A stretch of DNA of 64,000 nt, from positions 1 through 64,000 of the forward strand of contig JACRJI010000006.1 of assembly GCA_016235665.1 (NCBI GenBank), read 5' to 3'. Made by a program: the position numbers and the translations under genes. Source of the DNA: a candidate division TA06 bacterium (GTDB lineage: Bacteria; Edwardsbacteria; AC1; EtOH8). This document shows positions 16,173-23,600 of this stretch, one piece after another. Numbering within the stretch: the stretch's first letter is position 1; every line of letters starts with the position of its first letter. Under the pieces are notes generated by a model. The model had not been told where the DNA came from. It worked only from the letters and a program-made list of their open reading frames with translations, and did not search any database.

Positions 16173-16742
16173 ATGCGACACCGCAAAGACACCTTAAAAC
16201 TGAGCCGCAGCCATTCCCACCGCCGGGCCCTGATGTCCAACATGGTGACCTCGCTTTTCAAGCACGAGAAGATACAGACCACCTTTCCCAAGGCCCAGGC
16301 GGCCAAGCGGGTGGCCGAGCACCTGATTTCCGTCTCCAAGCAGAACGACCTGGCCGCCATCCGCCAGGTGGGCCGGGTGGTCAAGGACAAGGATGTGCTA
16401 AAGAAGCTGTTCCAGGTGATCATGCCCCGGATGAAGGACAAGAAGTCCGGCTTCATCACCGTCACCAAGTTGTGGCTGCGCAAGGGCGATGCCGCCCTGC
16501 TGTGCCTGATGGAGCTCTACGGCGCCCCGGCCAAGGCCAAGCTGGTTGAAGGCGAGAAGAAGGAAAAGGAAAAGAAGGTACACAAGCCGGCCAAGAAACA
16601 GCCGGGCAAGAAGCCCGCCTCCGCCAAGGCTCCGGCGGACAAGGTCAAGACAGAAGGCAAGCCCAAAGAGGAGAAGAAATCCGCCTCCGCTAAAGTTACT
16701 GCGGACAAGGCCGAGAAAAAGCCCGCCAACACCAAGGCTTAG
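16173..16742 (+). CDS. rplQ: 50S ribosomal protein L17 with repetitive tail
   Basis: Residues 1 to about 118 are a complete L17 (MRHRKDTLKLSRSHSHRRAL through LCLMELYGAPAKAKL). The remaining about 70 residues are a Lys/Ala/Pro tail with repeated SAKxxADK motifs. At DNA level these are palindromic repeats at about 16617-16643, 16683-16710 and 16724-16752. The TAG stop at 16740-16742 lies inside the third repeat. The frame stays open for eight more codons (ADKAEVKK) to a TAA at 16767-16769, as if a longer tail had been cut by a recent mutation. Confidence 0.95.
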   Translation: MRHRKDTLKLSRSHSHRRALMSNMVTSLFKHEKIQTTFPKAQAAKRVAEHLISVSKQNDLAAIRQVGRVVKDKDVLKKLFQVIMPRMKDKKSGFITVTKLWLRKGDAALLCLMELYGAPAKAKLVEGEKKEKEKKVHKPAKKQPGKKPASAKAPADKVKTEGKPKEEKKSASAKVTADKAEKKPANTKA

Positions 16743-16790: not shown

Positions 16791-16828
16791 AGCGCAAGGT
16801 TTAGAAATAAACCTTGCGCTATTTTGTT
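16791..16828 (+). terminator. Rho-independent terminator of the ribosomal operon
   Basis: AGCGCAAGGTTTA (16791-16803) and TAAACCTTGCGCT (16808-16820) form a perfect 13-bp stem with a GAAA loop, followed by ATTTTGTT. It lies 48 bp after the rplQ stop and just before the AT-rich region, so it marks the end of the tuf-rplQ transcription unit. Confidence 0.93.
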
Positions 16829-16880: not shown

Positions 16881-16910
16881 TTGACAAATATGTATCGGAA
16901 ATGATATTAT
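16881..16910 (+). promoter_or_regulatory. Sigma70-type promoter for the RHS gene
   Basis: TTGACA (16881-16886) and TATTAT (16905-16910) are separated by 18 bp in a very AT-rich stretch. The start codon of the RHS gene is 64 bp beyond the -10 box, with TTAGGAGAAG as ribosome site. The placement right after the operon terminator supports independent expression. Confidence 0.7.
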
Positions 16911-16973: not shown

Positions 16974-19900
16974 ATGGACCACAATATGCGTCCAGTAAAA
17001 TTATTAAGAAAAAATGACAGGCTTAGCAGGTTTATTGTTAATCTTACGACCATGATATTTTTGATATTGTTTTTAACGGGATCATCAACGGTATTTGCTA
17101 ATGGTGAACTCGTTTATTCTGGGGTTGGAACCGTTCATTCTCTGGGTTGGGAGGACTTTGAAAACAGTCAATTCAAAAAGAAAGAGGAACCTGCAAAAGC
17201 AGCTACTTCGTTATTTGTGCCCGGCGCGCATACCGAAAAGAACCCCGGCATACGCGACTTAAACTACAGCGAAGGTTCGGAAGGTATAAACCCTCTTAAC
17301 GGCGGTGTGTTTTTACACCAAAGCGATCTGGGATTGACCGGCAGGAACGGCGGCCTGCCGATGACTCGTTTTTACAGCAGCAAAAGAGTGTGGCGGCAGA
17401 CAATTGCCAATGAGGTTTCATCGCGCCAGGCTGTTAATTATAACGAATATAATACGTATTATACCCATGTCCCGCCCAGCGGCATCATGGGTCAGGGCTG
17501 GGATTTTAACATGGGGCGGATGTATTTACCGATCAATGATTCTTTAGGCGCAGGCTGGCCACCAGCCAGGTACAAATATGAAGAGCCATCAGGCATATCG
17601 CATAGTCTTGATACGATTGGTAATACCTCCAACTATAGGTCTGCAGACGGCCAGTATTTGCGTTTAAACAATTACTCAACAAGCTGTACTTTAAGGATTT
17701 CCTCCGGCAGCGAAGTAACATTTGCCGACGGGCTTGATTATATGTATCTGCCCAATTGGATACAGGATGCGTTAGGTTATGGCAGTGTATTGCTGCCGGT
17801 AAAGGTAACCGACCGTAACGGCAACTACATTAATATAAGCTATAAAGGCGATCCCGTAGGGAATGAAGTAAGATATATACAGATAGACTCCATAGTCAGC
17901 AGCAACGGCTCAAAAATGTTTTGTTATGCCTCTTACAAAAAATATACTCCGGTAAACGATTCGGTGCTGTTGATGGACAGCATGAAAACTAGGGGTTATA
18001 ACGGCGTCAATCAAACGGTAAAATATCATTATAAATTATACAAGACCACGTCCCAGCCTTTTGAATATTATGGCCAGGATTATGTGTTTGACGAGGAGCG
18101 CTGGTGCGCAGTGGCTTTAACGGACACCATACGGCGGTATTGTCTTAGCGCGGTGCTGTTTCCCAACGGCGATTCCGTAGCCTACGATTATAACCAGTAT
18201 TTTGAACTTTCCAAGCAGACACTGCCGACCGGTGGAAGCAGTGAATACAGCTATGGCAATTATGGGTTCCCCTTATTGGACAACAATAACAATTACACCC
18301 GTTTTACCAGGGCGGCAGACACATTGAAGGCCAAGGAAAACGATGGTTCTCTGGTTTCCAAGATCACATTTACCAGAAATGTGGTGGCCGGATACTATTC
18401 CAACCCGACCGATGTCAGAATTACCGATTCGCAGGGCGGGGAGACCAGGACTTATTTCATGTACAGCCAAACTCCGTTCAAAAGCGGCGGTTATGGGAAA
18501 GTTGAAAAAGAAGTGCATTATGATTTTGCCGGGAATGTGATAGACAGCGTTAAATACACTACAATATCGGATGATCTTTATTTAGGGACGCCGCTGACCT
18601 ACGGCCGCAATATGCGTCCGGACTCCATAGTAAGCTATATCGGCAGTAAAAAATACTGCACCCGGTACCGGCAGTACGATGGTTATGGCAATTTCCAGAG
18701 GATAGACAACCTGGGCGACATGGGCACCACCGCCGACAACAATTCAGTTTTCACCACTTATCTGCATAACAGCAAAACACAGTATAATTTTGACAATAAA
18801 CACATACTCAATCTGCCTTGCAGTACCTATGTAAAACCGGACAGCGCTTCCACCGTGGTGCTGTCGAAGACCAAGTTCTTCTACGACGATACCACCAGGA
18901 CCGACACTACCAGCTACAGTTCCTATCCGCCGGTCAACTGGCAAAGCCCGGGAATGATACGGGGCAACATTACCAGGGCCTGCCGCTGGAAGGCCGGGGC
19001 GCTGTACGACACCACCCAGATATTTTATGACAAGCTGGGCAATGTAATAAAGACCATAAACGCCAAGGGCGATTCATCCAAGGTATCCTATTCTGCTTTG
19101 GGAAGCTACTATCCCGATAAGTTCCAGTATGCCTGGCCCTGCAGCACCGTTAGTTATGTTGCCAACGGGGCAAACGTGCTGGCTTTAAGCAGCATAACAG
19201 ATTACGACAGTTGTACCGGCCTTGTTTTATGGTCAGCAGGCGCCAACCGGGACACCACCCGTTTTGAGTACGATACATACGGACGTCCCATAAAGGCAGT
19301 CAAACCCGGGGAATGGGCCGGGAGCTGGGGCTCCACCTATCCTTCGGCCGTCACTCATTATTACGACAGCGGCTATCCCCGGTCAACCGTAGACTCGGTA
19401 AAGATAACCGGCACCAAGTATGCGGTCAGCAAGACCTTTTATAACGGGTTTGGCCGGGCCATACAAGCCCAAAAGACGGAGTTGAATGGTTATGCAACCA
19501 TAGCAAATACGGCTTACGATTCATTGGGGCGGGTGCAAAAGGCATCCAATCCAATTGCCACAGTCACTACTTTCGGAACCTATGTAAGTACGGACTACTG
19601 GTCCAGCCAGCCCAAGGTACGGTATTATTACGACGCCATAGGCCGTCCGCTTAAGACCGTTTACCAGGACTCCACCCGCGATTCCGTGGCTTTTGGCGAT
19701 AACTGGGTGAAGACCTGGGACGCCAAGGGCGACACCGCCATCGCCAAGGTGAACGGCCCCGGCATGGCCGATACCACCATCAATGGCCTGGGTTTGTTGA
19801 CCATAGTCAAACACGACAAACTGGGCCGCGACAGCGTGATCATCGACGCCGCCGGCAAAAGCACCTATTGCTATTATGACACCTTAGGGCGCACCAAGGG

Positions 19901-22148
19901 CGCCAACGGAACTGACGCCTCGTCCAGCTATACCTATAAAGGCGCCGCCCTGGACTTTTTACTGGAATATGACGCGGTGGACAATATTACCTGCCGCAAG
20001 AACGCCAAGGGCGTGGTTAACTACACTTACGACGCACTTAAGCGGGTCACCAAGGTTGACTCGGCGGGGTCGGATAGAGTATTATATAAGTACGACAGCT
20101 ATACCGACTGCAATTATTCCCCGTCCGATACTTTGTACGCCAAGGGCCGGATAACCAGGCTGATCACAGCGGGCATAGATACCACCTGGTTTGCCTACGA
20201 CAAGGCCGGCCGGTTGGTCAAAAGAGTATATGCCTATGCCGGGATGAACGGCGGCCGCGATTCCATCCGTTATGCCTATAACTCGGCCGATGCCTGCACC
20301 GCCCTGACTTATCCGGATGGAACAGTCGCAAAGTACAGTTACAATACCCTGGGCCAGTTGATGTCGGTTAAGAGCGCTTCTTATTATTATGTGGACTCCA
20401 CCTATTACAACGTTACCAACCTAGCCAAAAAGATACAATATTCCAATTACACCAGCGACAGCATGTTCTATGATAACCGCTTAAGGATCAACCGGTTGAA
20501 GACTACGAATTACGTTTGGGAAATCCCGGCGACCTATTCAAGAATGGACCTGAGCTACAGTTACTGGGAAGACGGCTACATCAAAAAGATACAGGACAAT
20601 CTTAATTCGTCCTACACCCAGTATTACGACTCCAGCATCAGTTACGACGCCGCCGGACGGCTTACGGTTTGCAAGACGGGGTCAACAGTCATATCCTACA
20701 CCTACGACAACGTGGGCAACCGGACCGCGGAGGTGATTGGCGGCACCAGCAGAGCGCTAACCTACACCTCGGGGACCAACAAGCTGGCCACCGCCAATAT
20801 AAAGGGTACAACTTATTGGTATATACACGACAATGCCGGCAACGTAACAGGTAAGGAAGCCTCGGGCGGTTATTATTACTCTTATGATTATAATAACATG
20901 TTGTGCAAGATGAACCAGCTAGACGCCATGGACAGGACGGTCCGCACGGTCACCAATTACTACGGCATGGGCGGCAGCACCCGGGTGAAGAAGAAGGACA
21001 GCCAATTAGGCAGCCGCTATTACACCTACGAGGGGCTTAACCCGCTTTGCGAATACGATTCCACCGGCACGGTCAAAAAGAAATATGTTTACGCCTTTGG
21101 CGAGTGCATAGCCTATGAGGACAGCGTTAGCAATGTTTACTGGATGCACCACGACGCCATAGGCAGCGTTAAGGTAATTACCGATTGCAACGGCGACTCC
21201 GTTTCCACCTACAAGTATTACCCGTTTGGGGACTCGCTTTTAACCCGGGGCAGCGCCAAGAACGATATGCAGTTTACCGGCAAGCCGAATATTGCAGGCA
21301 TAGAGGCCTACGATTTTAATGCCAGGTACTACGACCCGGAGATTGGCCGGTTTTACAGCATTGACCCGCTGTGGAACCCGGCGGTAAGCCCGTATGCGTA
21401 TTGTAATAATAACCCGGTGAATTTTACGGACCCGACGGGGAAGAAGGCAGACCCTGTACAGCAAGAAAAAGCATTACAACAAGCTTTGCATGATTTATAC
21501 TCTGGACATGTTAGTTCTTTTACACTCGTTGATGGCGATATACGAATTACTTATGCTCTGATGTGGGTAGAGGATCACACCCGACCAATTTGTGGTGCTG
21601 ATGGTGAAGGATTTAGCGGGTACTATGTCCAGAATCGTTTATTTACGGAACTGATGAATGCTGTAAAAGGAGGGAATGGCGGCGGAAATACCAATTCCGG
21701 GCCTACCCCGCCTAAAACGACGCCAGGGTCAGAGCTGGGTGCAACTACTGGTGGGAGCGGAAGAAGTGGGGCTACTGATCCTACCGGGAATGGCGGGGTC
21801 CCGACATCGCAGGGGAGAGATTTACCTTCACAAATAGCAAATGCGTGGAAAAATCTTAATACAAGTGTAATTGATGGAATAAACAGAATGTTAAACTCTT
21901 ATCCTGGTCAGGTTGGTACTACAGCATTACCAACTGCTTATTGCGGTAGTTTCCCAGTAGCAGAGGGGTTAGGTGCCGGTATAGTTGCACCACAAACCGT
22001 AAAAGCTGCAATGTATGAGGAATTTCATAGATCAATGTTAGACTCTCTTGATGCGGCTATTCAAAGGGGTGGTGGATTCGGTGATAATTGTCCTACCGAT
22101 AACAGTGATTCAACTGTATTTGATGATTATGGGAAGCGCCATCCATAA
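16974..22148 (+). CDS. RHS/YD-repeat protein with variable C-terminal tip
   Basis: This 1724-residue protein has a hydrophobic N-terminal segment (about 22-44, a signal peptide or anchor). Many YD repeats follow (such as YDSLGRV, YDALKRV, YDAAGRLT, YDNVGNRT) from about 400 to 1400. The RHS core end (ARYYDPEIGRFYSIDP, then DPTG at 1486-1489) is intact. In RHS proteins the repeats form a shell around a C-terminal toxic or adhesive domain. The tip here (1490-1724) has a Gly/Thr/Pro linker at about 1560-1620 and a final about 105 residues I do not recognise. GC falls sharply at the tip, which suggests exchange of the tip by recombination. Confidence 0.9.
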   Translation: MDHNMRPVKLLRKNDRLSRFIVNLTTMIFLILFLTGSSTVFANGELVYSGVGTVHSLGWEDFENSQFKKKEEPAKAATSLFVPGAHTEKNPGIRDLNYSEGSEGINPLNGGVFLHQSDLGLTGRNGGLPMTRFYSSKRVWRQTIANEVSSRQAVNYNEYNTYYTHVPPSGIMGQGWDFNMGRMYLPINDSLGAGWPPARYKYEEPSGISHSLDTIGNTSNYRSADGQYLRLNNYSTSCTLRISSGSEVTFADGLDYMYLPNWIQDALGYGSVLLPVKVTDRNGNYINISYKGDPVGNEVRYIQIDSIVSSNGSKMFCYASYKKYTPVNDSVLLMDSMKTRGYNGVNQTVKYHYKLYKTTSQPFEYYGQDYVFDEERWCAVALTDTIRRYCLSAVLFPNGDSVAYDYNQYFELSKQTLPTGGSSEYSYGNYGFPLLDNNNNYTRFTRAADTLKAKENDGSLVSKITFTRNVVAGYYSNPTDVRITDSQGGETRTYFMYSQTPFKSGGYGKVEKEVHYDFAGNVIDSVKYTTISDDLYLGTPLTYGRNMRPDSIVSYIGSKKYCTRYRQYDGYGNFQRIDNLGDMGTTADNNSVFTTYLHNSKTQYNFDNKHILNLPCSTYVKPDSASTVVLSKTKFFYDDTTRTDTTSYSSYPPVNWQSPGMIRGNITRACRWKAGALYDTTQIFYDKLGNVIKTINAKGDSSKVSYSALGSYYPDKFQYAWPCSTVSYVANGANVLALSSITDYDSCTGLVLWSAGANRDTTRFEYDTYGRPIKAVKPGEWAGSWGSTYPSAVTHYYDSGYPRSTVDSVKITGTKYAVSKTFYNGFGRAIQAQKTELNGYATIANTAYDSLGRVQKASNPIATVTTFGTYVSTDYWSSQPKVRYYYDAIGRPLKTVYQDSTRDSVAFGDNWVKTWDAKGDTAIAKVNGPGMADTTINGLGLLTIVKHDKLGRDSVIIDAAGKSTYCYYDTLGRTKGANGTDASSSYTYKGAALDFLLEYDAVDNITCRKNAKGVVNYTYDALKRVTKVDSAGSDRVLYKYDSYTDCNYSPSDTLYAKGRITRLITAGIDTTWFAYDKAGRLVKRVYAYAGMNGGRDSIRYAYNSADACTALTYPDGTVAKYSYNTLGQLMSVKSASYYYVDSTYYNVTNLAKKIQYSNYTSDSMFYDNRLRINRLKTTNYVWEIPATYSRMDLSYSYWEDGYIKKIQDNLNSSYTQYYDSSISYDAAGRLTVCKTGSTVISYTYDNVGNRTAEVIGGTSRALTYTSGTNKLATANIKGTTYWYIHDNAGNVTGKEASGGYYYSYDYNNMLCKMNQLDAMDRTVRTVTNYYGMGGSTRVKKKDSQLGSRYYTYEGLNPLCEYDSTGTVKKKYVYAFGECIAYEDSVSNVYWMHHDAIGSVKVITDCNGDSVSTYKYYPFGDSLLTRGSAKNDMQFTGKPNIAGIEAYDFNARYYDPEIGRFYSIDPLWNPAVSPYAYCNNNPVNFTDPTGKKADPVQQEKALQQALHDLYSGHVSSFTLVDGDIRITYALMWVEDHTRPICGADGEGFSGYYVQNRLFTELMNAVKGGNGGGNTNSGPTPPKTTPGSELGATTGGSGRSGATDPTGNGGVPTSQGRDLPSQIANAWKNLNTSVIDGINRMLNSYPGQVGTTALPTAYCGSFPVAEGLGAGIVAPQTVKAAMYEEFHRSMLDSLDAAIQRGGGFGDNCPTDNSDSTVFDDYGKRHP

Positions 22149-22167
22149 TAATTAAGACAACTGTTAT

Positions 22168-23511
22168 ATGAAAAAATATTTATTACGCATATTCATATTA
22201 TTATTATTATTTGTACAAATTGCATCTGCAACGACAAGAGACACCTTATCTGCGCAAATAAATGGAACAATAAAATGGATTACACACAAAAAAAGCAATT
22301 ATGCTGTTGCAAGATCAATACTTTTGGACGTCAAAAAGCAACTGCCAGATACTGCTTTTGGAGGTAAATGCTTTTATGCATTGTGTTTGGCTTACAGAGG
22401 TATGTGTAATCATGAAGCAACTTATTATTATGCCACCAAGGCTTTAAACAATGCAAAAACATGGGGCGATTCTGCTTTAGCTTTCGCAATCCAGGGGGAG
22501 GCGCTTTATAATATTGGTATTTATGAAAGGGCCGGGTTATCTTTGGGAAATGCAAGAGTATTAGCCTTGACAAATGATGAAAAATATTTTAAACTCTTTC
22601 AATATCTTGACAGTGTGAGAATCGGTGGTGAGGAAGCCCGTGACGATGAAAAAACCAAGCCATATTTGCAAAAATTATTTTTTATAATTAAAAGAGCTAT
22701 ATTTTACATCGGAGATCGTTACACCTGGGCGTACACAATATTTAATGGTAATAATTGGTATTTCCTAATTAATTCAATGTTTCTTACGGCATGTTATTTA
22801 CTGTTTATTAAAGTAAAATATAAAGCCAATATATTATTAAATTATGCGTACAACTATTATTTACTGTATTTTAGTATTTTACTCCTGTGGAATGTCATTA
22901 TAACCAATTATTTAATTTATAATGGGCGCATTGACTATTTTACAAATTGGAATGATGAAATGCCAATGCTAAGCCTATGCTTTTCCCAGTTAATCTTTGC
23001 CTTGGCGTATGTTGTTTTTGATTATACTAAAAAATGGAAAATTGCTAAAGAAATAATCCAGTGCATAAAAGACATACCTTTGGTTAAACAGATAAAATGG
23101 GCAGTAATTGGCATAGTAATCATGGTGACAATCCGTATTGTATTGGCTGTAGTAAAATTGTATCCAATTGTATTGAGCAGTTTGTTTATAAAACCCGGTT
23201 TGTTCAATACCCGTTATTTTATTATTTATGTAATTGCGATAACAATTGCAGCTCCTATATTTGAAGAAGTGTTCATGAGGTGGCTCGTCTATCGCTCGGT
23301 GAGGAAAGTTACTAATTTATGGGTTGGTTTATTGGCAACAACAATAATAGGTTTACTTTTGCACGGGCAAACTTATAGTAACATCAGTGTGTTTTATTTA
23401 ATAAACCTTATATTGATATCTACAGTATCGTCGATATTGGTAGAAAAAACAGGTTCAATATTGCCGTCAATTATTGTTCATATGTTTAACAATGTAATTT
23501 CATTCATATAA
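22168..23511 (+). CDS. Membrane protein with C-terminal CPBP protease motifs
   Basis: The 447-residue, strongly AT-rich gene lies 19 bp after the RHS stop with no terminator between, so the two are likely co-transcribed. It has an N-terminal signal peptide and a soluble segment (about 25-170) with a helical, TPR-like look. Several membrane helices follow, and then the CPBP (Rce1-like) motifs: E366-E367-x3-R371, H399 and H438-x3-N442. CPBP proteins act as intramembrane proteases and include bacteriocin immunity proteins. A role in protecting against, or maturing, the RHS product is inference. The start has only a weak ribosome site. Confidence 0.75.
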   Translation: MKKYLLRIFILLLLFVQIASATTRDTLSAQINGTIKWITHKKSNYAVARSILLDVKKQLPDTAFGGKCFYALCLAYRGMCNHEATYYYATKALNNAKTWGDSALAFAIQGEALYNIGIYERAGLSLGNARVLALTNDEKYFKLFQYLDSVRIGGEEARDDEKTKPYLQKLFFIIKRAIFYIGDRYTWAYTIFNGNNWYFLINSMFLTACYLLFIKVKYKANILLNYAYNYYLLYFSILLLWNVIITNYLIYNGRIDYFTNWNDEMPMLSLCFSQLIFALAYVVFDYTKKWKIAKEIIQCIKDIPLVKQIKWAVIGIVIMVTIRIVLAVVKLYPIVLSSLFIKPGLFNTRYFIIYVIAITIAAPIFEEVFMRWLVYRSVRKVTNLWVGLLATTIIGLLLHGQTYSNISVFYLINLILISTVSSILVEKTGSILPSIIVHMFNNVISFI

Positions 23512-23561
23512 CAATAATTGTTATGGGTTATGGTAAAGAGGCTTCACTTAACCAGAAAGAG

Positions 23562-23600
23562 GGCGGAAGGAAATTAATCCTTGCGCCTTTTTTGTTTTTA
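23562..23600 (+). terminator. Terminator after the CPBP gene
   Basis: GGCGGAAGGA (23562-23571) pairs with TCCTTGCGCC (23578-23587) except for one mismatch, followed by a long T-rich run. It closes the AT-rich RHS-CPBP unit. The ATG of the next gene is only 30 bp beyond the stem. Confidence 0.8.

Follow-up and report, generated by a model that had tools for sequence, protein, structure and literature searches.

Annotation of the window (the whole 64,000-nucleotide stretch of candidate division TA06 DNA analyzed here) revealed an RHS polymorphic toxin gene followed, 19 bp downstream and on the same strand, by a gene encoding a CPBP protein. Such a pairing hints at a form of toxin immunity that has drawn little notice so far. 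In the reading we favour, with a probability of about 0.6, the CPBP protein would be the cognate immunity factor of a horizontally moved polymorphic-toxin cassette, the toxin tip acting in the cell envelope and the CPBP protein guarding the producer from the inner membrane. Established by sequence comparison are the cassette organisation, the swapping of tips and partner genes, the conservation of the CPBP active site and the repeated presence of CPBP genes among RHS cassettes. The coordinates, lengths and spacing of the two genes given in the first-pass annotation of this locus were correct on re-checking.

RHS toxin/immunity cassettes of the WapA and Rhs type combine an RHS shell, a DPxG boundary and a variable tip with a partner gene immediately downstream; tip and partner are swapped as a unit, and orphan cassettes occur in arrays, as described in the available portion of the survey by Zhang et al. 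(2012; PMC3482391). The window pair is like these cassettes in all of the above, but its partner is a 447-aa CPBP predicted glutamic intramembrane protease and the fold of its tip is unrecognised. The same portion of that survey contains no mention of CAAX and names CPBP only as a relative of PrsW.

The RHS gene (16974..22148, forward strand), defined by profile and open reading frame analysis, encodes a protein of 1,724 aa. Its N-terminus resembles a signal peptide, with a hydrophobic segment starting at residue 17, and Sec export of the protein is therefore likely. A DUF6531-like match at residues 104-137 lies slightly below the Pfam cut-off, RHS repeats are present (PF05593, E 7e-17 in the Pfam search), and the RHS-associated core was recognized in the NCBIfam search by TIGR03696 (residues 1415-1489, E 2e-19). 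As already annotated, the core is intact to its end at DPTG (residues 1486-1489), a boundary of the DPxG form seen in RHS polymorphic toxins. A two-aspartate motif (21363..21443, forward strand) is composed of D1464 (DPLWN) and D1486 (DPTGK). The same motif with a 17-residue spacing goes with self-cleavage in Photorhabdus Rhs1 (PMC8636562), and in the window protein the spacing is exactly 17 residues.

Beyond the core lies a variable tip of 235 aa (21441..22145, forward strand), composed of a segment of about 80 aa, a Gly/Pro linker and a C-terminal module of about 112 aa ending in ...DDYGKRHP. Sequence searches of Pfam, PHROG and PDB gave no meaningful E-value, in agreement with the initial description of the tip as unrecognised, and neither these nor the genome searches revealed a known toxin domain, which is common in RHS toxins although not obligatory. 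Structure prediction and a search for the tip behind other N-termini had both been proposed at the outset. No fold was obtained from the former (the AlphaFold model, made without an alignment, had a pLDDT of 36 and was uninformative), while the latter returned only Gly/Pro-linker noise in 386 genomes and no relative in collections of genome contigs and plasmids. One weak match to the pre-linker part, in locus L082, was taken as chance, 386 genomes having been searched. No transmembrane anchor is present at the C-terminus of the tip, whose maximal 19-residue hydropathy is 1.04. The description of the tip as low in GC holds for the pre-linker segment (0.42) and the C-terminal module (0.41) but not for the linker (0.62), and the whole tip stands at 0.45.

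The partner gene (22168..23511, forward strand) is intact and encodes a CPBP (Rce1-like) predicted glutamic intramembrane protease placed in the immunity-gene slot. Its assignment as a CPBP-motif gene was borne out by a PF02517 match at residues 351-444 (E 1.9e-14; 54.1 bits against a Pfam cut-off of 22.4). In an alignment of 20 sequences residues E366, E367, R371, H399, H438 and N442 are invariant, and the EExxxR, FxxxH and HxxxN motifs were counted as present, with G395 replacing F in the second of them. The active site is thus conserved and proteolysis is predicted. The N-terminal extension (22168..22740, forward strand) comprises a predicted signal peptide (residues 1-24) and about 170 residues predicted to lie outside the inner membrane, with a TPR-like pattern; several transmembrane segments follow. 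The extension has no Pfam match, and its PDB matches to TPR proteins are weak (E 0.05-0.4), so that its TPR-like identity is a suggestion. Among the matches listed from 386 genomes, distant relatives of the CPBP protein align only from residue ~264 onward; the N-terminal domain thus appears private to the window protein, being found nowhere else in this sample.

Other CPBP genes are present in the same family of genomes: PF02517 gave 2-4 matches per genome and 26 in total in 10 genomes, and the source genome itself carries two further CPBP genes, both on contig C16. Discovery of the window CPBP gene alone in relatives, which the first-pass annotation had named as grounds for abandoning the pairing, did not occur, as no orthologue was present in the nine family members examined.

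Both genes lie between one promoter-like site and one terminator, as originally proposed. The former (TTGACA-18-TATTAT with TG; 16881..16910, forward strand) is a consensus match only, albeit 11/12 and the best of the region, and the good Shine-Dalgarno-like AGGAGA before the RHS ATG is likewise only a consensus match. The terminator after the pair (about 23556..23594, forward strand), missed by a simple scan, folds to -21 kcal/mol (z -4.8) and lies at the right-hand boundary of the island. At the left edge stands the terminator of the rplQ operon (16791..16820, forward strand), whose hairpin also occurs in a congener with an empty site; the 3' half of the right-hand terminator matches the rplQ terminator of that empty site. 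The GC content is 0.32 in the CPBP gene, compared with 0.49 in the core. A stepwise decrease in GC through core, tip and next gene is the usual pattern of RHS cassettes, the means over 209 of them being 0.48, 0.42 and 0.36, respectively, and the window pair follows it.

The RHS-CPBP pair is located between rplQ and a gene for a GHL10 glycosidase-like protein. This gap is a hotspot for RHS cassettes, because it is empty in one congener (G002), where rplQ and the GHL10 gene are adjacent, contains other cassettes in two relatives (in G005 a full RHS gene of 1,503 aa and two orphan cassettes of tip and partner, in G009 four such tip/partner cassettes) and harbours a lone gene in a further one (G007). 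The lone gene encodes a 155-aa membrane protein, also present in G009, which is a probable orphan immunity gene. This multi-TM protein was located at the site in the two genomes at L063:8495-8962 and L058:2506-2973, and no RHS gene accompanies it in G007. Two relatives carry, in the same hotspot beside rplQ, an open reading frame resembling DUF559 endonucleases (L058:1782-2150 and L062:2862-3134; recognized by eye only). At 16560-16742 the rplQ gene of the window has a long Lys/Ala/Pro-rich C-terminal tail containing short repeated units, which is variable among relatives.

Exchange of tip and partner was also seen at a different locus. An RHS protein of G009 encoded away from the rplQ-GHL10 site (L074) shares 50% identity with the window protein over residues 561-1508, and beyond residue 1508 the two differ completely, both in the tip and in the next gene. 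Similarity that ends at the core together with a changed next gene is the mark of a polymorphic toxin, and it points to the window RHS gene being one. On these grounds we regard the window CPBP gene as the occupant of the immunity slot. Phospholipase A2, M23 peptidase, CHAP/NlpC-like and PPPDE-peptidase-like domains occur among the tips of this family, some scoring slightly under the Pfam cut-off, and most tips are closely followed by an unrelated gene for a signal-peptide, lipoprotein-like or multi-TM protein.

CPBP genes beside other RHS genes were sought from both sides, as the first-pass annotation had advised. A screen starting from RHS genes covered 284 distinct RHS open reading frames and 221 next-gene slots (the CPBP profile recovered 26/26 control loci). 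A CPBP gene occupied two of these slots, that of the window and that of another genome (G428), where tip stop and CPBP start share a 4-bp overlap and a further RHS cassette comes next. In a third genome (G400) a CPBP gene is flanked by two cassettes of an RHS array, and no recognised tip immediately precedes it. A screen starting from CPBP genes (113 loci) added a gene of G688 situated 108 bp after an RHS tip, although most CPBP genes were not directly behind one. All three additional CPBP genes exceed the Pfam cut-off. In the RHS array of G428 (L327; C9:329700-348000) numerous short tip cassettes follow one another, in several cases with a multi-TM gene behind them, and the CPBP-like gene occupies one slot. 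The RHS-CPBP pairing is thus rare, as had been supposed (one of about 220 next-gene slots besides the window), but recurs; its recurrence beyond the window is thin. No similarity was found among the tips of the window, G428 and G688, and one common mechanism for CPBP-linked tips is therefore not established. The suggestion that these tips are unusually amphipathic, as expected of pore-forming peptides, was unsupported (percentiles 85, 86 and 72 among 260 tips).

Such counts bear on whether the CPBP gene could be passenger DNA that landed behind the RHS gene by chance, which we consider unlikely. CPBP genes are common in the family, most are distant from RHS genes, and CaaX proteases have been noted in laterally transferred islands (PMC5380434). 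With CPBP genes forming about 0.1% of genes in the family (26 matches in 10 genomes, the gene number being estimated from genome size), roughly 0.2 chance occurrences are expected in the approximately 220 slots other than the window, versus one observed. From the opposite direction, with about 1.5 RHS cores per genome in the phylum sample, some 110 CPBP loci would have about 0.04 RHS neighbours by chance and one was observed. Both counts are rough, and in one family the G428 protein was used to draw part of the second sample. Stronger evidence than either count is the position of the G428 gene, inside an RHS array and overlapping its tip gene; the G688 gene is another case. At the window itself, a chance arrival accords poorly with the 19-bp spacing on the same strand between a shared promoter-like site and a terminator, and with the fact that the CPBP gene fills the slot holding a partner gene in other cassettes.

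Short bacteriocin peptides are what CPBP/Abi immunity proteins protect against, mainly in Gram-positive bacteria. The first-pass annotation had pointed to this function, and for some species a role of CPBP/Abi proteins in bacteriocin immunity is reported (reviewed in PMC9298176). The window protein resembles those of Kjos et al. (2010), as far as they are presented in that review: it belongs to the same family, has the EExxxR and HxxxN motifs and is encoded beside a toxin gene. Unlike them, it has a signal peptide and a TPR-like domain, and its gene lies downstream of an RHS gene, with no bacteriocin peptide gene adjacent. Some bacteriocin systems link CAAX proteases to immunity, others to processing or regulation (PMC9298176), and family membership alone thus does not settle the role.

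A processing role, in which the CPBP protein would release the RHS tip in the manner of PrsW or MrtX/MrtJ instead of conferring immunity, also seems improbable. Its protease active site is intact, and PrsW, a distantly related membrane peptidase, is described in the available portion of the survey of polymorphic toxins as their releasing peptidase (PMC3482391); there, however, PrsW is fused at the toxin N-terminus, whereas the window protease is encoded by a separate downstream gene. Pairs of one CPBP sorting enzyme and one exported target are known among MrtX/MrtJ-type myxosortases (PMC11980579). Their targets possess a Cys motif, a C-terminal TM helix and an Arg-rich tail, and the window tip has no such end. 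NCBIfam matches of the window CPBP protein to sorting enzymes are weak and far below cut-off (MrtS, 21/130 bits; MrtJ, 14/75 bits), so that neither the target end nor the enzyme score expected of a CTERM sorting pair was found. More than 200 other RHS tips manage with no CPBP neighbour. Since the RHS protein carries its own two-aspartate self-cleavage motif and its tip has no CTERM-type anchor, a maturation role is disfavoured. Immunity and maturation had initially been proposed side by side; cassette swapping and the three further RHS-associated CPBP genes argue for a toxin with a gene in its immunity slot, while maturation has been weakened.

We regard it as very unlikely that the tip is no antibacterial toxin but a degenerate or structural end of the RHS protein, with the pair serving at the surface or in signalling: the tip is Gly/Pro-rich, has no catalytic signature and matches no toxin fold or relative, but many genuine toxin tips have no known relatives, the frame is open with the self-cleavage motif in place, the genes are organised as a cassette and other tips at the rplQ-GHL10 site are recognisable enzymes.

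Under the immunity reading, the Sec-exported RHS protein would pack its variable C-terminal tip in a shell and release it through self-cleavage at D1486, and the tip would probably exert its toxic effect in the envelope of a neighbouring competitor. The CPBP protein, predicted to reside in the inner membrane with its additional signal peptide and its TPR-like domain facing the periplasm, may shield the producing cell by trapping the tip, and perhaps cleaving it, in or at the membrane. Among toxin-immunity partners of this kind, most of those characterised act by binding. Immunity might here be enzymatic, with the protease, which has an added exported TPR-like docking domain, recognising an envelope-acting tip and destroying it at the inner membrane; we regard this as a doubtful possibility, which if true would give RHS systems an active form of immunity in place of mere binding.

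If the CPBP protein is an immunity factor, the large families of RHS toxins and of CPBP proteases become linked, some of the many bacterial CPBP genes lacking a function would gain one, and an unrecognised class of RHS tips acting at the membrane is predicted. As the pairing recurs in other genomes, the idea is open to ordinary toxin/immunity assays. RHS cassettes, CPBP bacteriocin immunity, CPBP sorting proteases and PrsW release peptidases are all described in the literature. CPBP genes have also been counted in interbacterial-toxin loci, those of the Morganella T6SS, where the available portion of the report lists them as 'miscellaneous' and states no role or RHS pairing (PMC13129497). Beyond these counts no published RHS-CPBP pairing was found, which is weak evidence of absence, as the search covered searchable papers and few subscription ones.

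Four more RHS loci were identified in the source genome, on contigs C4, C10, C12 and C14 (L067-L070), those on C10, C12 and C14 being arrays. Their tips are of the M23-peptidase, CHAP/NlpC-like, HExxH-like and papain-like types, and most are followed by a small gene encoding a signal-peptide or membrane protein.
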